This document shows, piece by piece, positions 2,078 to 32,044 of a DNA stretch of 36,163 nucleotides. The translations under genes and the position numbers were made by a program. Source of the stretch: a virus; IMG/VR virus record IMGVR_UViG_3300030389_002642, positions 1 through 36,163 of that record. One strand, 5' to 3'. The notes beneath the pieces were generated by a model. It had not been told where the DNA came from, made no database searches, and was given only the letters and a program-made list of their open reading frames with translations. Position 1 is the first letter of the stretch, and every line of letters starts with the position of its first letter.

Positions 2078-2528
2078 AACAATATTAATATTTATTATTG
2101 TTGTTAGCGTTTTATTTTTCTTCCCGGCTTTCTTGCTTGGCGATGAGATGGTGTTTAAATTTAAGTCGCCAAGTTTTTCTGGTCTGAACACTTCGCAGCA
2201 TTATCTTACGATTGAAAACCAACAATTCTCTAGGAAGCAGGCTATAGAAGACGACAAGCAAGCTTTGTTAGATGAAGCAGAAAGAGAAGCCAATAACAGC
2301 ACCCTCGCTAGATTTATTAGAAACTTAGAGTCTAGGGTGTACGCTAAACTGTCTTCTCAGTTGGTAGAAAGTTTGTTTGGTGAAAACCCACAAACGTCTG
2401 GTTCCATAGAACTAGAGGGCAACACCATAGAATACGAAGTTGACGAGGAGTACATTACACTAACGGTAACAGATGAAAAAGGCGAAACAACTACTATCAC
2501 TTTTCCTCTTAACAGCTTTACTTTCTAG
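2037..2528 (+). CDS. csgF: CsgF-like curli assembly protein
   Basis: In the bacterial curli (type VIII secretion) system, CsgF is exported and inserts its N-terminus into the CsgG pore. This protein has a basic N-terminus and a hydrophobic segment (about 15-34, TILIFIIVVSVLFFFPAFLL) that can serve as a signal peptide, then MVFKFKSPSFSGLN, which lines up with the start of mature E. coli CsgF (MTFQFRNPNFGGNP, from memory). The C-terminal part (GSIELEGNTIEYEVDEEYIT, then LTVTDEKGETTTITFP) matches the CsgF beta-sheet end (LNVTDRKTGQTSQIEV). Length 163 aa, slightly above E. coli CsgF. AAGGA precedes the tandem ATGs at 2037 and 2040. The last 56 bases overlap csgG. Identity rests on recalled family sequence plus the adjacent csgG. 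Confidence 0.82.
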   Translation: MMKSWKAYKRRQIKTILIFIIVVSVLFFFPAFLLGDEMVFKFKSPSFSGLNTSQHYLTIENQQFSRKQAIEDDKQALLDEAEREANNSTLARFIRNLESRVYAKLSSQLVESLFGENPQTSGSIELEGNTIEYEVDEEYITLTVTDEKGETTTITFPLNSFTF

Positions 2529-3282
2529 CTGCGTTCTACTCGACTCCGAATACTCGCTAGAAAACTTTAAAATTACTCGACTAGCAGAGATGGCCTCTGT
2601 TATAAACACCGAACTCTGGGAGTTACCGCAACCAAAAACTAAACCCGTTGTTGCAGTCTATCCTACTTCTTTTCTAGATCAGACAGGCCAACGTCGTAGC
2701 AATAGCGCCTTTGCTACGTTTAGCACAGCCGTCACCCAAGCACCGTACACTCTCTTGATACAAGCACTCAAGCATACTGCGCAGGGTGATTTCTTTGAAG
2801 TCGTCGAACGTATCGGTCTTGATAACCTAAGTAAAGAACGCCAGCTTATCCGTTCTACTAGAGAAAGTTTTGATGAACCGCAAAAGTTAAAGCCTTTGAT
2901 GTTTGCAGGGATTATTTTTGAAGGCGCAGTGGTAAGTTACGAAAGCAACATAAGAACAGGCGGTACCGGGGGCAGAGTATTAGGCATCGGCATGAGCAGA
3001 AGCTATCGACAAGATACCGTTACCGTAAGTCTTCGAACCGTATCTGTTTTGACTGGACGCATACTAACAGAGGTTACGACTACCAAAAGCATATTAAGTG
3101 TGGGCATCAACGAAGATGTGTTTAGGTTTGTGTTTAATCAGACTGAACTTGTCGAAATAGAAAACGGTAACGTCGAGAACGAATCAATTACCATAGCGTT
3201 ACAGTCTGCTATCGAGATGGCAGTTTTAAAGACAGTCGAAAAGGGTATAATAAAAAATTATTGGAGTTACAAAGATGATTAA
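2473..3282 (+). CDS. csgG: CsgG-like outer-membrane curli secretion pore (lipoprotein)
   Basis: CsgG is the nonameric outer-membrane lipoprotein pore that exports curli subunits. The 269-residue product is close to E. coli CsgG in length. It begins with a lipoprotein signal (hydrophobic 8-18, lipobox LLSSC, Cys20). Family blocks are clear: VVAVYPTSFLDQTGQ, FSTAVTQAPYTLLIQALKH, VERIGLDNLSKERQLIR, FEGAVVSYESNIRTGGTGGR, GIGMSRSYRQDTVTVSLRTV and TEVTTTKSILSVGI, then VFRF. These correspond to the periplasmic fold and the transmembrane hairpins of CsgG. The constriction loop (72-87) keeps the Phe before STAV but has no Tyr and is one residue longer than E. coli. The first 56 bases lie within the csgF-like gene. 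Host-derived acquisition is likely. Confidence 0.92.
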   Translation: MKKAKQLLSLFLLTALLSSCVLLDSEYSLENFKITRLAEMASVINTELWELPQPKTKPVVAVYPTSFLDQTGQRRSNSAFATFSTAVTQAPYTLLIQALKHTAQGDFFEVVERIGLDNLSKERQLIRSTRESFDEPQKLKPLMFAGIIFEGAVVSYESNIRTGGTGGRVLGIGMSRSYRQDTVTVSLRTVSVLTGRILTEVTTTKSILSVGINEDVFRFVFNQTELVEIENGNVENESITIALQSAIEMAVLKTVEKGIIKNYWSYKDD

Positions 3283-3979
3283 ATATTTATTAATCTTCTT
3301 GGCAAGCTTTGTATACGCCGCGGATAACGAAGTCTCCATAGATCAAGTTGGTGGTACCATCAACATTGATGTAGAACAGCTAGGGTCAGGCAACTTAATA
3401 GGTGGTGCATCAGCCTCTGCTGGAAGCATGACACCATTAGACTTAGACGGTGTCACGATGACTTTAGATATCAATCAAATAGGTTCAAGCAACTTATTTA
3501 GAGGAGATATCTATGCAGACTCGTACACAGGTTTTTTTGAGTTTAGCGGTGGGTCAAACATTTTCGATATTCAAACAGATCCAAGCAATACTTACGGAGC
3601 TGATTCAAGCAACGTCAACATACAGGTTACTGGGTCGAGTAATGATATGTCGTTAGACCAAGCAACAAACGCTATGGCGTCGACACTAGATTTAGACTGG
3701 ATTATCAATGGTTCAAACAACACCATAGATTCTGACATAGATGTGGATTTGGCTACTAACTACATGGATATAGACGGGTCAGATAATACGATAAACTATA
3801 ACGGAGACGGCTATCAAGGTGGCTACTTTTATTTAGATCACACAGGTGGTTCAAGAACGTTAAATGTTACACAAGCTTCTACTTTGGATAACGATTGGTT
3901 ACGGGTCATTAGTAACGGCTCAAATGGATCTTTCTGCATTATCCAAAACGACCAAGGCACAGCCACAAGTTGCCCTTGA
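3275..3979 (+). CDS. Secreted curlin-repeat-like protein
   Basis: This 234-residue protein has a clean Sec signal peptide (MIKYLLIFLASFVYA, cleavage before ADNEV). The mature part is rich in Asn, Asp, Ser, Gly and Thr and built of irregular repeats such as VSIDQVGGTINIDVEQLGSG, MTLDINQIGSSNLF, VNIQVTGSSNDMSLDQ and LNVTQAS. These carry the Gln-x-Gly-x-x-Asn and alternating beta pattern of curlin repeats in CsgA/CsgB. Two Cys near the end (221, 233) could form a disulfide. GGAG precedes the ATG, which overlaps csgG by 8 bases. Its place next to CsgG/CsgF makes it the obvious exported substrate. Repeats are more divergent than in CsgA, so amyloid formation is inferred. Confidence 0.75.
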   Translation: MIKYLLIFLASFVYAADNEVSIDQVGGTINIDVEQLGSGNLIGGASASAGSMTPLDLDGVTMTLDINQIGSSNLFRGDIYADSYTGFFEFSGGSNIFDIQTDPSNTYGADSSNVNIQVTGSSNDMSLDQATNAMASTLDLDWIINGSNNTIDSDIDVDLATNYMDIDGSDNTINYNGDGYQGGYFYLDHTGGSRTLNVTQASTLDNDWLRVISNGSNGSFCIIQNDQGTATSCP

Positions 3980-5018
3980 TGTCGGGTCAGTAGAAGAAGT
4001 ATCGGGGTTTGCTCAGATAGAAAGGGACGAGTCCTTTGCCGTGACTCAAGACTTTGTCGTGCAATCTTACGACAAAGCACAAACCGAAGCGGGTCGTATG
4101 GGCATACGCTTCGTGGACGACACAACCATTAAGATTACTGAGAACTCTATGGTCATCATAGACGAGTTTGTCTTTGACCCCGACCCATCTAAATCAAAAC
4201 TAGCCGTTAACTTTCTAAAAGGCACAGCACGTTTTACCACTGGGCTTACCGGCAAAGTGGCTAAAGAAAACATGGTACTACGAACCAATTCTGCTACGGT
4301 AGGTATTCGGGGCACAGACTTTAGCGTTACCGTGAACCCAGATACTTCAGAGTCTTTGTTTATATTATTGCCAGATCAAGATGGTGCGCCATCGGGTGAG
4401 ATATCGGTAACAACCGACATGGGCACGGTTGTTCTAAACCAAGCCTTTCAAGCCACTACCACTACTACGTTAGAGAGTGCGCCTAGCGAACCAGTAATAC
4501 TAGATCTGTCGTTAGATTTTATTGACAACATGCTTATCGTAACGCCACCCAAACGTTCTAGATCATTTGACGAAGAACAAGGGACCACAGACACTGTCGA
4601 CCCAATACTGGACTTCAACGAGCTAGACATAGATTATTTAGCAGAAGAAAACTTAGGTGAAGAAGGATTAGAGTTTACCGAGCTAGACTACGATGCACTA
4701 AACGTAAACTTCTTGGAAGACCTGTTAGATATCATCAACGAGTTAGATAAAATAGACGATGAAGACCGATTGGCACAAGAAGCAACTACAACAAGCATAA
4801 AAGGAACAGCAGTAGGACAAGATACAAAAACACAAATAACTACAATAGTCACCGGAGAAAAGATAAAATTAAGCAGAGCCGTGGGATCTAGCGCAGCTAT
4901 AAACATAGATAGTGGTAATAGTTACACCGTCGTACTGGAACAAGACGGCGTGGTAAACGAAGTAAAAGTTAACGGCGGCAGTGATTCGACCATCGTCATT
5001 AGACAGGGGAATGGTTAA
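3864..5018 (+). CDS. Exported FecR-domain protein
   Basis: The start is ATG 3864, because it supplies a good signal peptide (MLHKLLLWITIGYGSLVTA, cleavage before Q) although that places 116 bases inside the preceding gene; no strong ribosome site is visible. The FecR domain spans about residues 40-190: GFAQIERDESFAV, RMGIRFVDDTTIKITENSMV, FLKGTARFTTG and TNSATVGIRGTDFSV are typical. Then comes an acidic region (about 230-300) and a C-terminal segment (about 310-384) with VVLEQDGVVNEVKVNGGSDS and IVIRQGNG, resembling curlin-like strands. There is no membrane anchor, so it is not a classical anti-sigma FecR. I infer an exported partner, perhaps a nucleator or anchor, of the curlin-like protein. 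Confidence 0.8.
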   Translation: MLHKLLLWITIGYGSLVTAQMDLSALSKTTKAQPQVALDVGSVEEVSGFAQIERDESFAVTQDFVVQSYDKAQTEAGRMGIRFVDDTTIKITENSMVIIDEFVFDPDPSKSKLAVNFLKGTARFTTGLTGKVAKENMVLRTNSATVGIRGTDFSVTVNPDTSESLFILLPDQDGAPSGEISVTTDMGTVVLNQAFQATTTTTLESAPSEPVILDLSLDFIDNMLIVTPPKRSRSFDEEQGTTDTVDPILDFNELDIDYLAEENLGEEGLEFTELDYDALNVNFLEDLLDIINELDKIDDEDRLAQEATTTSIKGTAVGQDTKTQITTIVTGEKIKLSRAVGSSAAINIDSGNSYTVVLEQDGVVNEVKVNGGSDSTIVIRQGNG

Positions 5019-11419: not shown

Positions 11420-13893
11420 TGGCTAGTTATCTTGATCCAGTAACCACCTTATCAGGAGTAGAAGATCCGTTTGCCGCTAGGATGCGTAAGGACTTTTTAG
11501 AGTCCGCATTTGATTTAGCTGCAACACCGACACCTATAGCTCAACAACAAATAGCTGGGTTTGATCCGTTAGAACAACAAGCTAGACAATTAGCCGGCGG
11601 ACTAGGTCAGTTTCAACCTTTTATACAACAAGCAGCAGGTTTCTTTGGTCCACAAGGAGCAAGAGACTTTTACAACCCGTACGAAGACGCAGTTGTACAA
11701 CAAACAATAAGCGACTTATCAGAAAGATCGGGCATACAAGGCATAGCTGATAGAGCTTCAGCTGTGCAAGCAGGCGCTTTTGGCGGTTCGCGTGGCAGAC
11801 TCATGGAGTCAGAAAGACAAAGAGCTTTGGGCAGAGGATTAGCAGAAGCTATAGGCGGCATAAGACAAAGAGGATTTGAAGGAGCAAGAGCCGCAGCGCA
11901 AGGAGCAGCTTCCGGTTTAGCTGGGCTAGCACAAACAGGGCAAGCAGGACTAATAAATCAAATAGGAACATTAGGACAATTAGGTGGTTTAGGCAGAGGA
12001 TTACAACAAGCAGGGTTTGACGCTACGTTTGATGCAGCTAGAAGAACTGCACTAGAGCCAAGACAAAGACTACAAACGTTACAAGGCATGTTGAGTTTAT
12101 TGCCAAGAACTCGTGCCTCTACAGTATTTAGAGCAGCAGCTGGAACAGATCCAACGGCACAAGCACTAGGCTTCTTACGAGGCGGCGGTCTACAAGGACT
12201 ACTAGGAATGGAAGAGGGCGGTTTTGTTGGAGCGGGCGGAAAAGAATATCCAAACAAAGGTTTAGCTGCTTTGTCTAAATCTGCTCCAGAAGTAGTAGAG
12301 AGAATGGGCTATGAACGAGGCGGCGAGGTTTTTCCAGCTGAAGAAGCCTTAAATTTTATTGAGGGCACAGGCCCTATGGGCGTGCCTTATCCTAGCGGTA
12401 TGCCTGCACAAGTCTTTGAAGAAGGCGATCCAGAAATAAACGAAGCTTTGAATAGGATGGCAGCGGCAGTTAAACCAACTGGCGAAGCTCCTAAAGTTGA
12501 AGTTAAAGAAGCCCCTGAAGTTATCGCCACAGAATTGGCTGAAGTAGAAGAAAAAATAAAAGAGCCGAGAGGCAAAGAAGGCATCTTTCTTAAAGACGTA
12601 GAAGAACAAAGAGAGTCTTTAGAAAATGCTATCGTAACTTTTGTTGAACAAAAAAATATACAAGAAGAACCTTCTTTAGAAGTAAAAAAGGAAATAGAGT
12701 CTTTTATAGACAAAGCAAATACTTTATTTAAAAAGACAGTACAAAATTCTGCTGACAAATTAGATGTAGATATCAACATAGATCAAGTTACTTTGTTAAC
12801 AGATAAATTTGATAGAAAACTAGAAACAACATTTCCGGTTATATCCGACATAATGGAGTCCGATGATTCAGGAACCACGGACCAAGAACCTTTAATGATG
12901 CAAGAAGGAGGAGAAGTAGATAATTCTAAAACCATAGAAAAACAAAAACAAATTATAAAAGAACTTGAAGCGGCTTACGAAAGACAACTTCAAAGAGGAG
13001 ACAGAGGAGCCCTTGGTGGTGGCACTAGCTACATAGATCAAGCTAAAGAAAAATTAGATCAAGCTAGAAAACGTTTAGAACAATTACAACAAGGGGTGTC
13101 TCCTTCAGATATTAGAGCCGGAGAAAAAACTCAAAAAGACCTACAAAATGAAATGCAAAAAGATGCGGATGTAGCCGCAGCCGCAGGGGCTTTTGATGAA
13201 TTTGGACCTAGCGCGCTTTCGGAGGAAGAGTACAAAAAACAATTAGAAGAAGCTGAAAAAGCACTTAAAGACGGTGCAATTACAAAAGAGGCTTATGACG
13301 CGTTAGTTGCTAATGATCCTAGTAAAAAGAAGAAAGAAGAAGAGCCCCTTCCTACCTTTAATTTGCCGGGATTAACCGCTGAAGAAAAGCTGCTGCCTTA
13401 TTATGAAAGACTAAAAGAATACGAAGATAAAATGATAAACGCTGGGCTGATGAGCGGTAAATCAAAAGAAGGCGGCCTTGCAGGGGCTTTCGATGTTATT
13501 GGTCAAGCTAGGGCTAAAGCTGTTCCTGTAGGGATGTCTCCTGATGCTGCTTTAATACAAGCTTTGTCTAGAGGCATAGGCCCCGAAAGAGTTATTGACA
13601 CCTCTTTAAGCGCCAGCGACCAAGCTAGAATAAGAGTATTAGCAACACAAAACATTGACAGAGCCATTGAAGAGGGAGCAATACCTACTCCAGCAACAGG
13701 CTTCACCCCGGAAATGAGAGACGGTTTAATTAGAAAAGAAATGGAAAGAATTATAGAAGAAAACAGAGCTATATTTACTCAAACAGCAGCTGTTGATACA
13801 AGTGGGAATAAATCTTCTATAACAGACACTTTAGGTAAATTAGTGACCGACGCTGGAAAAAATGCTTTGAGGGATGCTCTTAATCTAACTTAA
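11419..13893 (+). CDS. Large virion protein, 824 aa, probable internal/ejected protein
   Basis: Residues 1-250 carry a conserved marine-phage module: SYLDPVTTLSG, FLESAFDLA, ADRASAVQAGAFGGSRGRLM and ESERQRALGRGLAEAIG, rich in Ala/Gly/Gln and helical. Residues 270-330 have EGGFVGAGGKEYPNKG and ERGGEVFPAEEALNFIEGTG motifs. From about 370 on it is highly charged and predicted coiled coil (long Glu/Lys runs, QEGGEVDN near 495, KQKQIIKELEAAYERQLQRG). No enzymatic motif is recognised. Its size, Ala-rich N-terminus and place before the 1625-aa protein suit an ejected internal protein of a short-tailed phage. An 11-base gap separates it from the next gene. Confidence 0.7.
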   Translation: MASYLDPVTTLSGVEDPFAARMRKDFLESAFDLAATPTPIAQQQIAGFDPLEQQARQLAGGLGQFQPFIQQAAGFFGPQGARDFYNPYEDAVVQQTISDLSERSGIQGIADRASAVQAGAFGGSRGRLMESERQRALGRGLAEAIGGIRQRGFEGARAAAQGAASGLAGLAQTGQAGLINQIGTLGQLGGLGRGLQQAGFDATFDAARRTALEPRQRLQTLQGMLSLLPRTRASTVFRAAAGTDPTAQALGFLRGGGLQGLLGMEEGGFVGAGGKEYPNKGLAALSKSAPEVVERMGYERGGEVFPAEEALNFIEGTGPMGVPYPSGMPAQVFEEGDPEINEALNRMAAAVKPTGEAPKVEVKEAPEVIATELAEVEEKIKEPRGKEGIFLKDVEEQRESLENAIVTFVEQKNIQEEPSLEVKKEIESFIDKANTLFKKTVQNSADKLDVDINIDQVTLLTDKFDRKLETTFPVISDIMESDDSGTTDQEPLMMQEGGEVDNSKTIEKQKQIIKELEAAYERQLQRGDRGALGGGTSYIDQAKEKLDQARKRLEQLQQGVSPSDIRAGEKTQKDLQNEMQKDADVAAAAGAFDEFGPSALSEEEYKKQLEEAEKALKDGAITKEAYDALVANDPSKKKKEEEPLPTFNLPGLTAEEKLLPYYERLKEYEDKMINAGLMSGKSKEGGLAGAFDVIGQARAKAVPVGMSPDAALIQALSRGIGPERVIDTSLSASDQARIRVLATQNIDRAIEEGAIPTPATGFTPEMRDGLIRKEMERIIEENRAIFTQTAAVDTSGNKSSITDTLGKLVTDAGKNALRDALNLT

Positions 13894-28418: not shown

Positions 28419-28985
28419 ATGAACGAAGAAATACGCAAAGCGGTAGACGCTTTATACTTTGGCAAAACCGATCTTCCCCCTGAAGAGCAAATGAAAAACT
28501 TAGGCGGGATACTTTCTATATTCGCCCCCGATCCTGACGATCCGTTAGAATATTTAGGGGCCGCAGGCTTGCCGGTCTTTATCGTCAAACGCCTAAATCG
28601 CCTCAGACAAATAGCGGGTGATCCAAAAGCGGCGGACGAAGTTAGAGATATCGCTAACGACATTGTACAAAGCGCTGACGCCGATCAACTTAGATTGGTA
28701 CAAAGAGAGCTAGATGAGATTGAAACGATGGGCAGTAATAAGATTGCGCGCGACTCTGATCCTGATATGCCTATTACCGCGCAGTACGCCGAAGGATCAA
28801 ACATAGTGATGAATGTAGGTAGGGCCAAACGTATAGTGAACGATACGTTGAAGGACCAAGGACCTAGCATGGAAGAGAAGAGCGACATTCTAGCTAAGAT
28901 GAAAAAGAAACTCGACGACCCGGACGAAATGAAAGCTGGCGGCATGGTGATGAACTATGGCGACTACGGCAGAACGTATAAGTGA
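28419..28985 (+). CDS. Conserved marine-phage protein, 188 aa, unknown
   Basis: The ATG at 28419 has no obvious ribosome site but lies six bases after a TATAAT (28407-28412), so initiation might be from a near-leaderless transcript. The protein is soluble with an alternating Asp/Pro-rich region (APDPDDPLEYLGAAGLPVFI) and a helical middle, and ends in KAGGMVMNYGDYGRTYK. That GGMVMNYGDYGR end resembles the Gly-Gly motifs found in several virion proteins of this window (for example GGMDDDG at 11277, GGEVF at 12322). Function unknown. The stop overlaps the GTG of the next gene (GTGA). Confidence 0.6.
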   Translation: MNEEIRKAVDALYFGKTDLPPEEQMKNLGGILSIFAPDPDDPLEYLGAAGLPVFIVKRLNRLRQIAGDPKAADEVRDIANDIVQSADADQLRLVQRELDEIETMGSNKIARDSDPDMPITAQYAEGSNIVMNVGRAKRIVNDTLKDQGPSMEEKSDILAKMKKKLDDPDEMKAGGMVMNYGDYGRTYK

Positions 28986-29323
28986 CTCCCAAATACAATA
29001 AGTTTTATTATCGACCCCTGCCGAAATGCTTGGAGGTAGGTGAGAGCGATATTGAAGGCGCAGGTATCTTTGCGGCTGAGGGCATAGAAAAAGGCGTGGA
29101 TCTCGGCATGACGCACATTAAAGTACCTATCATTCAAGGCTACGTACGCACAGCGCTCGGTGGTTTCGTTAATCATTACGAGAAAGCAAATTGTTATTTG
29201 GAAGAGAGATTGGATTGGGACGACTATCGGGTCTATCATTTAGTAACGGCAAGACCTATATTAGAGGGTGAAGAGATTACTTTAGATTATCATATAGACG
29301 AAGGAGTAGAAGATGGCGAATAA
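28982..29323 (+). CDS. SET-domain protein (putative lysine methyltransferase)
   Basis: The start is GTG 28982, overlapping the previous stop. The 113-residue protein is a compact SET domain: ESDIEGAGIFAAEGIEKG (22-38; GxG motif at 26-28), GGFVNHYEKANC (60-71, the NHxxxxNC motif) and GEEITLDY (96-103). The usual post-SET Cys-rich region is absent. SET proteins normally transfer methyl groups from S-adenosylmethionine to lysine side chains, so the target could be a phage or host Lys-rich protein. Known phage examples are few and mostly of unverified function. The end overlaps the thermonuclease gene by 11 bases. Confidence 0.85.
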   Translation: MTPKYNKFYYRPLPKCLEVGESDIEGAGIFAAEGIEKGVDLGMTHIKVPIIQGYVRTALGGFVNHYEKANCYLEERLDWDDYRVYHLVTARPILEGEEITLDYHIDEGVEDGE

Positions 29324-29836: not shown

Positions 29837-30587
29837 GGACATTACCGTTTGGTTTTCGTGCGGTGCCGCTTCTGCGGTGGCGGCAAAGAAAACACTTGAG
29901 CTGTACGGCAAGGACAACCGAGTCCGTGTCGTTAACAATCCGGTCAAAGAAGAACACGAAGATAATCAAAGATTTCTTTTGGATGTGCAAGACTGGCTTG
30001 GGGTCGAGATAGAGTATGCCATTAATCCTAAATTTAAAGACTGTTCGGCGGAAACCGTTTGGGATGATCGGCGCTTTATGTCTGGACCGATAGGCGCGCC
30101 GTGTACGTTACACTTAAAAAAGAACGCCAGACAATATTGGGAAGCGACTAATAAATCAGATCACTTGGTTCTTGGTTTTACTTACGATGAAAAGAAACGC
30201 GCAGAACGATTCGCACAAACGGAGAGAGATACTTTGATTCCTGTGCTGGTAGAAGAAAAGATCACCAAACAAGATTGCTTTGACATCATACAAGCGGCGG
30301 GTATCCAACGACCAAGGATCTACGACCTTGGTTATCCGAACGCTAATTGCATTGGTTGTGTGAAAGCTACCTCGCCTACGTATTGGAACTTGGTTAGAGA
30401 AACATTCCCAGAGGTATTTGCCAGTCGGGCCGAACAATCAAGGCGCATAGGCGCTAAGTTAGTGCGCCACAAGGGCGAAAGAATCTTTCTCGATGCTTTA
30501 CCGTTAGACGCCAAAGGACGACCGCTCAAGAGCTATGATTTTGAATGTGGGATTTTTTGCATAAAAGATGAAGAAAAGGTAGAATAA
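29820..30587 (+). CDS. PAPS-reductase-like PP-loop enzyme
   Basis: The start is GTG 29820, within the preceding gene. The 255-residue protein has the PP-loop ATPase-like FSCGAASAVAAKKTLELYGK (modified SGGxxS), the GAPCTLHLKKNARQYW block, VLGFTYDEKKRAERFAQTER, YPNANCIGCVKATSPTYWNL (Cys-x2-Cys) and a Cys pair near the end (ECGIFC). This pattern is shared with many phage proteins annotated as phosphoadenosine phosphosulfate reductase. Such PP-loop enzymes activate or use adenylated substrates; in phages they may support nucleic-acid thiolation or modification rather than sulfate assimilation. The exact substrate is not shown. It ends the block before a 406-base non-coding region. Confidence 0.82.
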   Translation: MDRVDKDITVWFSCGAASAVAAKKTLELYGKDNRVRVVNNPVKEEHEDNQRFLLDVQDWLGVEIEYAINPKFKDCSAETVWDDRRFMSGPIGAPCTLHLKKNARQYWEATNKSDHLVLGFTYDEKKRAERFAQTERDTLIPVLVEEKITKQDCFDIIQAAGIQRPRIYDLGYPNANCIGCVKATSPTYWNLVRETFPEVFASRAEQSRRIGAKLVRHKGERIFLDALPLDAKGRPLKSYDFECGIFCIKDEEKVE

Positions 30588-30616
30588 ACGCATAAGTTTT
30601 TTCATAATAACTTCAT

Positions 30617-30673
30617 AAAGGCGGCCGCTTACCCGTTGTTTTCTCCAAAGATTAATTGTTAACGGTCGCCTTT
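30617..30673 (+). other. Long-range inverted repeat (possible terminator) after the PP-loop gene
   Basis: AAAGGCGGCCG (30617-30627) pairs with CGGTCGCCTTT (30663-30673) with 10 of 11 positions matching, around a 35-base loop, and the right arm runs into TTTT. It follows the plus-strand gene ending at 30587, so a Rho-independent terminator is possible, although the loop is long. It could also be a structural part of the repeat region that follows. Confidence 0.4.
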
Positions 30674-30693
30674 TCCCCCAAAAACTCTAAAAA

Positions 30694-30930
30694 CCTAATG
30701 TGAACAAAAGGCTCACATTAGGTAAAAATTAGGTCAAAAACCCTTTCCCATATATACCTTTTTTATTATTCCACCTAATGTGAATGTCTATTTTTTTAAA
30801 AATCAAAAGATTTAGACTATCAGCTTCACTCAATAAATGACGTTATGACGTTCATTTTTGCTGTACGTTAGGTTCTATAAGGGTTTCCACCTAATGTGAG
30901 CCACATTAGGTCCACATTAGGAAATTAGGT
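30694..30930. repeat. Iteron-like repeats of CCTAATGTGA in both orientations
   Basis: This non-coding stretch has forward copies of CCTAATGTGA at 30694-30703, 30774-30783 and 30890-30899. The inverted form TCACATTAGG is at 30713-30722, and 9-base CACATTAGG copies are at 30902-30910 and 30913-30921. Partial ATTAGGT matches are at 30728-30734 and 30924-30930. The first pair forms an 11-bp stem palindrome (30693-30723). The region 30588-30993 contains no gene of its own. It lies between the PP-loop gene and the small terminase, so it may be a replication origin, a terminase recognition site (pac/cos-like) or an operator cluster. The repeats are directly seen; the role is inferred. Confidence 0.85.
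30837..30852. repeat. Perfect tandem 8-bp direct repeat ATGACGTT
   Basis: Two copies of ATGACGTT lie back to back inside the non-coding repeat region, between iteron copies. They could bind a protein or form part of a regulatory/origin element. Too short to classify further. Confidence 0.6.
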
Positions 30931-30956
30931 TTTTAGCTAAAACAGCCCTTGGTCCT

Positions 30957-30984
30957 TTGACTATGGGATATTTGCTGTTATATC
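30957..30984 (+). promoter_or_regulatory. Candidate sigma-70 promoter for the small terminase gene
   Basis: TTGACT (30957-30962) and TATATC (30979-30984) are separated by 16 bases. The gene starts at 30994, so the transcript leader would be very short. The iteron cluster lies directly upstream and could regulate it. No ribosome site precedes the ATG (ATTACGACCATGG), consistent with a near-leaderless start. Confidence 0.45.
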
Positions 30985-30993
30985 ATTACGACC

Positions 30994-31497
30994 ATGGAAG
31001 CTGAAAAGAAGATTTCAGAAAAAGCCAGACGTTTTGCCCACGAATACGTGTACAACGATGGCAGTAAAACTAAAGAAGAGTGTGCCTTGTCTGCTGGCTA
31101 CTCTAAAAGTTCTGCAAAAAGCAGAGCATCCGAGTTAACCAATCCAAGAAAATACCCCGCAGTTGTTCGATACATCCAAGACTTACAGGCTGAGGTCAAT
31201 GCAAAGTTTGATGTTTCTTACGGCAGACATATAAGAAAGCTTGCAGAGATTAGAGATTGTGCTTTGGACAAAGGCAACTACACCGCAGCCGTAGCCGCAG
31301 AAGTACAGAGAGGCCGAGCAGCCGGTTTGTACGTAGATAGGAAAGAAATTAGAACTGGTACGCTTGAGTCTATGTCCCAAGATCAGTTAATTAAAAAAGT
31401 AGATGGGTTGCTTGCGGATGTTATACCTTTGTTGGATAGACCAAAAGAATCGCCTAAAACTATCGACCAAACCCACACGATAGTTCGTAAAGACTAA
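30994..31497 (+). CDS. terS: Terminase small subunit-like protein
   Basis: This 167-residue protein has a helix-turn-helix-like N-terminus (EKARRFAHEYVYNDGSKTKE, then ECALSAGYSKSSAKSRASEL), the LTNPRKYPAVVRYIQDLQAE block and the central VSYGRHIRKLAEIRDCALDK, GNYTAAVAAEVQRGRAAGLY, VDRKEIRTGTLESMS. This is the pattern of small terminase subunits of marine podoviruses and Terminase_2-type proteins. Small terminases recognise the packaging site on DNA and stimulate the large subunit; the iteron region directly upstream could be that site. No large terminase follows, as the strand switches. The stop overlaps the convergent gene by four bases (CTAA). Confidence 0.82.
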   Translation: MEAEKKISEKARRFAHEYVYNDGSKTKEECALSAGYSKSSAKSRASELTNPRKYPAVVRYIQDLQAEVNAKFDVSYGRHIRKLAEIRDCALDKGNYTAAVAAEVQRGRAAGLYVDRKEIRTGTLESMSQDQLIKKVDGLLADVIPLLDRPKESPKTIDQTHTIVRKD

Positions 31498-31832
31498 TCC
31501 CTTAATATTTTACCCAAGCCAAGCGTGTAGCTATGTACTTGCTTGTCGCTATCTTTAGCTATCAACTGAAAGCCATCGAAAGACATGACGGTGTAGCCTT
31601 GTTTTTGTAAATACTCTTTGAACTGACTAAGTGATGACCACTCCTCTTTGAGATAAGGTTCGTTTTGTTTCTCCTCCAAAGTGTACGGTCTGGCAGTCAA
31701 CACGCTTTTAATGTAGTTTTTAACGATTACATTCAAATCGGCCCGTGTTATTGGCTTGTTCTTCTTGTAATACTTCTGTCCTAGATTAATTCGTTCTTCG
31801 TCTGTTAGTTCTATGCCTACGTTTGTTTTCAT
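31494..31832 (-). CDS. Unknown protein, 112 aa, last gene of small-gene array
   Basis: The product (MKTNVGIELTDEERINLGQK, YYKKNKPITRADLNVIVKNY, IKSVLTARPYTLEEKQNEPY) is helical in its first half with a possible helix-turn-helix or ribbon-helix-helix-like arrangement; the second half (LSQFKEYLQKQGYTVMSFDG, FQLIAKDSDKQVHSYTLGLG) is mixed. It overlaps the preceding gene by four bases and shares CTAA with the convergent small terminase gene. Function unknown. Confidence 0.6.
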   Translation of the reverse strand: MKTNVGIELTDEERINLGQKYYKKNKPITRADLNVIVKNYIKSVLTARPYTLEEKQNEPYLKEEWSSLSQFKEYLQKQGYTVMSFDGFQLIAKDSDKQVHSYTLGLGKILRD

Positions 31833-32044
31833 TCGTCTTTACCTTTTCTTGAAATATATGAAAGCTTCTCATTTTGAATCGAAGGCTCACCTAATTCTTT
31901 GTATTGTGTGTTAATTATCCAAGACAAAGTTTGCTCAGGTGTTGGCTTGAATCCAAATTTATCCTTTAAGTGCATACTTATACTTTTTAATCTTCTGTGT
32001 TCAATTTGACAAATTGATATTGTGCTGTATTTTTTTGCTTTCAT
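31829..32044 (-). CDS. Small basic helical protein, 71 aa, possible DNA-binding
   Basis: Preceded by GAGGGACGAGC overlapping the upstream stop (ATGA). The sequence MKAKKYSTISICQIEHRRLK, SISMHLKDKFGFKPTPEQTL, SWIINTQYKEL looks like a strand followed by two helices, compatible with a ribbon-helix-helix or similar small regulator. No firm family match. It sits near the end of the array and could regulate phage or host genes. Confidence 0.55.
   Translation of the reverse strand: MKAKKYSTISICQIEHRRLKSISMHLKDKFGFKPTPEQTLSWIINTQYKELGEPSIQNEKLSYISRKGKDE

Follow-up and report, generated by a model that had tools for sequence, protein, structure and literature searches.

Lambda-type cos sites lie beside terS, the small terminase gene, and carry repeats; in lambda itself, cosB displays repeated sites (the R sites, together with an IHF site) upstream of the terS gene. 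Other repeat-bearing sites are known from phages SPP1 and SF6. The SPP1 pac is a repeat-bearing DNA that extends over the promoters and the start of its terS gene; SF6 lacks the boxA repeats of SPP1 and has another repeat pair, although the TerS proteins of both phages are interchangeable, and the DNA-binding domain (DBD) of the SF6 protein shows a weak preference for TTAGGTT (PMC4737164). The SPP1 replication origins combine direct repeats with an AT-rich unwinding element, to which a dedicated origin-binding protein, gp38, binds, and one of the two origins interrupts the late region (PMC6316719).

Here we describe an array of short repeats, whose repeated sequence we call the word, in the complete IMG/VR record IMGVR_UViG_3300030389_002642 (36,163 bp; hereafter the window). 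As in the SPP1/SF6 pac sites, the repeats stand immediately in front of terS, where its possible promoter lies, they vary between phages, and the TerS of the window has a DBD of the same fold family; unlike those sites, the array comprises some nine copies that face either way and are spaced by 8/11 bp, lies past the far end of terS in one clade and changes its word at near-identical TerS DBDs. Direct repeats and an AT-rich stretch are shared with SPP1 oriL/oriR and other iteron origins; no gp38-like initiator as in SPP1 was identified for the window. The position of repeated sites upstream of terS is also that of lambda cosB, but the array has more sites, in both orientations, and no sign of fixed ends.

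A repeat array precedes the small terminase gene

The array is contained in a 406-bp gap flanked by a PAPS-reductase-like gene and the small terminase gene, which the sequence-only reading had called the largest non-coding region, a statement consistent with the ORF list of the window as judged by inspection rather than by formal computation. An exact search retrieved six copies of CCTAATGTG (30694+, 30714-, 30774+, 30890+, 30902- and 30913-), three per strand and spanning 228 bp, in agreement with the earlier count of at least six copies within 230 bases, three forward and three inverted; no further exact copy was found anywhere else in the record. The 11-bp-arm palindrome (sites 1 and 2) and the head-to-tail pair (sites 7 and 8) of that reading were likewise recovered as described. 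The top 9-mer cluster per 240 bp, counting both strands, has 6 members in the window vs 2-3 in 60 dinucleotide shuffles. Allowing up to two mismatches added three degenerate sites (~30725+, ~30864+ and ~30921+), for a total of nine, and copies inside the array differ on average at 1.0 per 9 nt. The features of the gap and the gene that follows are listed below, sites being given in the orientation of CACATTAGG and TCACATTAGGT.

30588-30993, no strand: array-bearing non-coding region, 406 bp, bounded by a stop at 30587 and an ATG at 30994
30617-30673, plus: AAAGGCGGCCGC...GGTCGCCTTTT inverted repeat, which probably terminates the upstream operon; weak hit in one search
30693-30703, minus: site 1, exact copy, TCACATTAGGT on the minus strand
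30713-30723, plus: site 2, exact copy, TCACATTAGGT, inverted partner of site 1
30725-30733, plus: degenerate site 2b, AAAATTAGG, 11 bp after site 2
30736-30758, no strand: element AAAAACCCTTTCCCATATATACC, which aligns with AAACCCTATA of relatives
30773-30783, minus: site 3, exact copy, also placed by the relatives' alignment
30783-30834, no strand: AT-rich block, by composition
30864-30872, plus: degenerate site TACGTTAGG, from the two-mismatch search
30875-30886, no strand: element CTATAAGGGTTT, which aligns across clades A, B and C and is inverted with respect to the AACCC element
30889-30899, minus: site 6, exact copy, also placed by the relatives' alignment
30902-30910, plus: site 7, exact copy, CACATTAGG, which opens a tandem triple
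30913-30921, plus: site 8, CACATTAGG, 11 bp after site 7
30921-30929, plus: site 9, degenerate, GAAATTAGG, 8 bp after site 8
30957-30986, plus: sigma70-like TTGACT-18-TATCAT, possible terS promoter, 10/12 matches; such matches are no commoner than in shuffles
30994-31497, plus: small terminase TerS, 167 aa, SF6/SPP1-type N-terminal HTH (helices 9-20, 27-33 and 38-48)

An 11-bp neighbour as at site 2b is present in loci L036 and L047 too, and the 11/8 tandem triple of sites 7-9 is seen again in relatives. By AT content, the richest 60-mer within the array region falls in the top 0.5% of all window 60-mers; across arrays, the AT-richness nearby exceeds that of the remaining locus only moderately (mean percentile 0.72). 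The stem of the hairpin at 30617-30673 is altered in L022, where GGCGGCCG/CGGTCGCC are replaced by GGCGGCTG/CAGTCGCC with pairing apparently retained.

The phage and its small terminase

Proteins of the window match those of HTVC027P/HTVC023P pelagiphages and phage DSL-LC04. TerL was not found in the record; in the near relatives G001 and G003 it is encoded several kb downstream of terS, and the genomes of cultured relatives measure about 57-62 kb. The window thus looks like part of a genome.

The gene downstream of the cluster had been taken for a small terminase, an assignment which holds: its product matches PF03592 above the cut-off, hits SF6-type structures by hmmsearch (4zc3, E 1.4e-6; 2cmp, 2.3e-6; 3zqp, 2.9e-6), and its structural model is placed with 4zc3 and 2cmp by Foldseek (probability 0.99-1.00). 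TerS is of the SF6/SPP1 type, with an SF6 G1P-type DBD.

Elsewhere in the window, CsgG-like and FecR-domain proteins (2473-3282 and 3864-5018) match the curli/T8SS gene set reported for HTVC023P-type pelagiphages (PMC9599517). A small SET-domain protein (PF00856) is encoded at 28982-29323, within the block of plus-strand genes that precedes the array, and a 71-aa ORF at 31829-32044 on the minus strand resembles by eye a ribbon-helix-helix regulator.

Relatives keep the array and replace the word

A nucleotide search of the 406-bp gap against phage records gave no match. Most of the relatives compared are metagenome contigs, hosts being identified for the cultured phages only. Among the window and its relatives the words upstream of terS were CACATTAGG, ACATTAGAC, GAACTGAGG or GAGGTGCGG: near relatives at 86-99% TerS identity carry the same word as the window, while at 61-69% identity the array is still upstream of terS and reads ACATTAGAC in clade B, GAACTGAGG/GAAATGAGA in clade C and GAGGTGCGG in clade E. 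The array is directly upstream of terS in clades A-C and E and in HTVC023P (word CTAGGAAAA), and beyond the far end of the gene in the more distant HTVC027P-type clade. There it lies ~0.3 kb past terS, flanked by gp28 and the exonuclease gene, and covers roughly +860 to +1290 as counted from the start of terS; the words of this clade include TGTAACAC, GGTAGTAG, AAAAGTAGAA, ATGTGGAA and GTCGACACC, word calls in large genomes being made partly by eye.

When clades A and C were aligned, their sites were largely in register, as was a conserved inverted pair of CCCTATA/TATAAGGG-type elements, AAACCCTATA and CTATAAGGGTTT; clade B aligns partly, and a clade C site pair at about -211/-203 is without counterpart in the window. 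Copies within the L035 array show a mean 9-nt difference of 1.3, and window and L035 copies paired by position a mean difference of 4.0/9 nt, for seven site pairs hand-picked from the alignment; between relatives, then, the copies of an array change their word jointly. Over 69 arrays, with each helix/word combination entered once, same-strand neighbours are spaced by 8 bp (46), 9 bp (26), 10 bp (25) or 11 bp (88), with few other spacings up to 24 bp; the site finder fuses sites less than 6-7 bp apart, so that shorter steps are invisible to it.

Since its layout and 8/11-bp spacing are kept in relatives despite the changed words, the array is, as judged from these comparisons, a conserved multi-site protein-docking element. 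The sequence-only reading had proposed conservation in related phages as a check and had counted lack of conserved repeats among the grounds against its interpretation. Distant relatives do have other words, yet their sites keep position, orientation and spacing, so that the repeats are lost to the letter only.

Other repeats were observed in the course of the comparison. HTVC027P-type loci (e.g. L057, L132 and L232) display CAAGCNN heptad-like tandem repeats at about -850 to -450 from terS, which are separate from the array. G017/G018, an unrelated phage, carries three CCTAATGTG copies directly after TerL (L085, 9870-9950), of which two stand on either side of a TGTCGGACA centre; having no core genes in common with the phages studied here, it was rejected as a bearer of a related array and the copies were taken as coincidence or convergence.

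Candidate readers of the word

The HTH of TerS was first attractive as the reader because the fixed TerS differences between clades A and C are concentrated in recognition helix 38-48, and because of the weak TTAGGTT preference of the SF6 DBD. However, recognition-helix and word similarity across 23 lineages gave a Spearman coefficient of 0.11 (partial -0.19); the TerS N-termini of L181 (GGTAGTAG) and L192 (TGTAAC) differ at 2 of 92 residues and have an identical recognition helix, and G028 and G045 carry different words at 96% TerS identity. With near-identical TerS proteins beside different arrays, and a helix similarity of no predictive value for the word, we rejected the TerS HTH as word determinant; the simplest form of a pac site, in which TerS reads the word through its HTH, is unsupported. 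This result is compatible with a pac site as such, given that the SPP1 and SF6 pac repeats differ though their TerS proteins can replace each other.

A natural recombinant, G030 (L469-L471, a contig with several frame breaks), has a replication module nearly identical to that of G028, whereas its array and its PolA, exonuclease and TerS belong to a different type. Its SNF2, gp33-like, gp34-like, primase and SF1 helicase proteins are 97-100% identical to those of G028, PolA is 71-77% identical over most of its length and the exonuclease 66%, and its word is TTGTAACC vs AGGTAGTAG in G028. The SNF2 helicase, the SF1 helicase and the gp33-like and gp34-like proteins were rejected as word determinants, being near-identical in two phages whose words differ, and the primase (98-99% identical in both) was rejected as reader on the same grounds. 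By eye, the C-terminal region of the primase is winged-helix-like. Conversely, G028 and G043 share a word while their gp28 proteins are 26% identical, and gp28 was also discarded. PolA, the exonuclease, the VRR nuclease and TerL are possible readers; the exonuclease and PolA show weak partial correlations with the word. Mantel-type tests over all families were dominated by phylogeny and singled out no reader, and a nearest-neighbour test was also weak.

P126 is a small protein family of HTVC027P-type genomes and HTVC023P, with a gene that in several of them lies no farther than about 2-3 kb from the array; its members include the product of an ORF at about 11792-12082 of the HTVC027P record and gp19 of HTVC023P. 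The predicted structure contains a three-helix HTH region, and neither Foldseek with the model nor Pfam gave an informative match. The P126 of G030 resembles that of G029/G063, which carry the same word as G030, and not that of G028, and in several cases the P126 HTH resembles that of same-word phages; the pairs G012/G022 and G019/G024 share a word with different P126 HTHs. The partial correlation with the word was 0.18 (permutation p 0.037), and 0.03 (p 0.375) for the HTH alone, for a family chosen after many genes were inspected and physically linked to the array. P126 may be considered a weak candidate reader, and only in HTVC027P/HTVC023P-type genomes, as no homologue was found in the clade of the window (clade A).

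Possible functions of the array

We favour an iteron-type replication origin (probability about 0.42) over a pac site or an operator cluster. Repeats at regular steps next to an AT-rich stretch fit an origin, those of SPP1 being built likewise, and several short, regularly spaced repeats, as looked for in an origin, are found throughout the 69 arrays. An initiator that recognises the 9-10 bp word would occupy its nine or so copies, arranged in a constant pattern about the AT-rich stretch, and would thereby open the DNA and start replication; we infer that a single protein would bind the array, and that it would be neither the TerS HTH nor part of the primase/helicase module. Against an origin, the only constant neighbour of the array is terS, not a replication gene, AT enrichment near arrays is moderate, and P126 tracks the word weakly and is absent from clade A. 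In cumulative skew (GC and AT) the array is not consistently at an extreme.

The constancy of terS fits a pac site, on which the terminase would assemble, TerL would cut nearby and headful packaging would start: all lineages in which an array was recognised have it beside terS, on one side or the other, with other neighbours varying, TerS carries the SF6 G1P-type DBD, and TTAGGTT resembles the window core TTAGGT. We nevertheless regard a pac site as rather unlikely, since the original study found TTAGGTT to be preferred only very weakly, the word differs while the TerS DBD is nearly constant (L181/L192, G028/G045), similar recognition helices do not predict similar words, and the array of the HTVC027P clade is past the far end of terS; perhaps a bent or multi-site architecture is recognised more than the word. 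Improbable, in our opinion, is a cluster of operators through which a phage transcription factor would control terS or other genes. The sigma70-like promoter upstream of terS begins about 28 bp after site 9, and DNA-binding-like small proteins are encoded nearby (P126 in relatives, the possible ribbon-helix-helix ORF at 31829-32044), but no homologue of that ORF was detected in the near relative G001, which carries the same word, and this reading is weakened by an adjacent gene that is not conserved: clades A-C and E have terS in that place, the HTVC027P clade either gp28 or the exonuclease gene's end. Were the array a cos site at which the genome has fixed ends, its repeats and its position next to terS would recall lambda-type sites. 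We hold this to be highly improbable; many contigs continue through the array, nearby contig starts are scattered (213, 161, 336 and 577 bp before the TerS match) and HTVC023P-type genomes were circularised via terminal overlaps (PMC9599517), observations that speak against a cos site but do not decide the matter. From the proposal of the sequence-only reading, an origin, a pac/cos-like site or a master operator, the conserved multi-site element beside terS stands, whereas a pac read by the TerS HTH and a single cos-type genome end found no support.

Significance

Replication origins and packaging sites were not found in the literature on HTVC023P-type pelagiphages searched for those terms. 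Cultured phages HTVC023P and HTVC027P carry identifiable arrays, which puts the question of origin vs pac within reach of ordinary sequencing. More speculatively, and with rather long odds, the array may be an origin or packaging element common to the whole family, of kept geometry (8/11-bp steps, paired and tandem sites), whose word is swapped in all copies together, even where two phages have near-identical TerS, and would be read by a fast-evolving protein, serving as a self/non-self tag in co-infection. The changes of word on a fixed scaffold constitute a natural experiment on the joint evolution of DNA sites and their readers.
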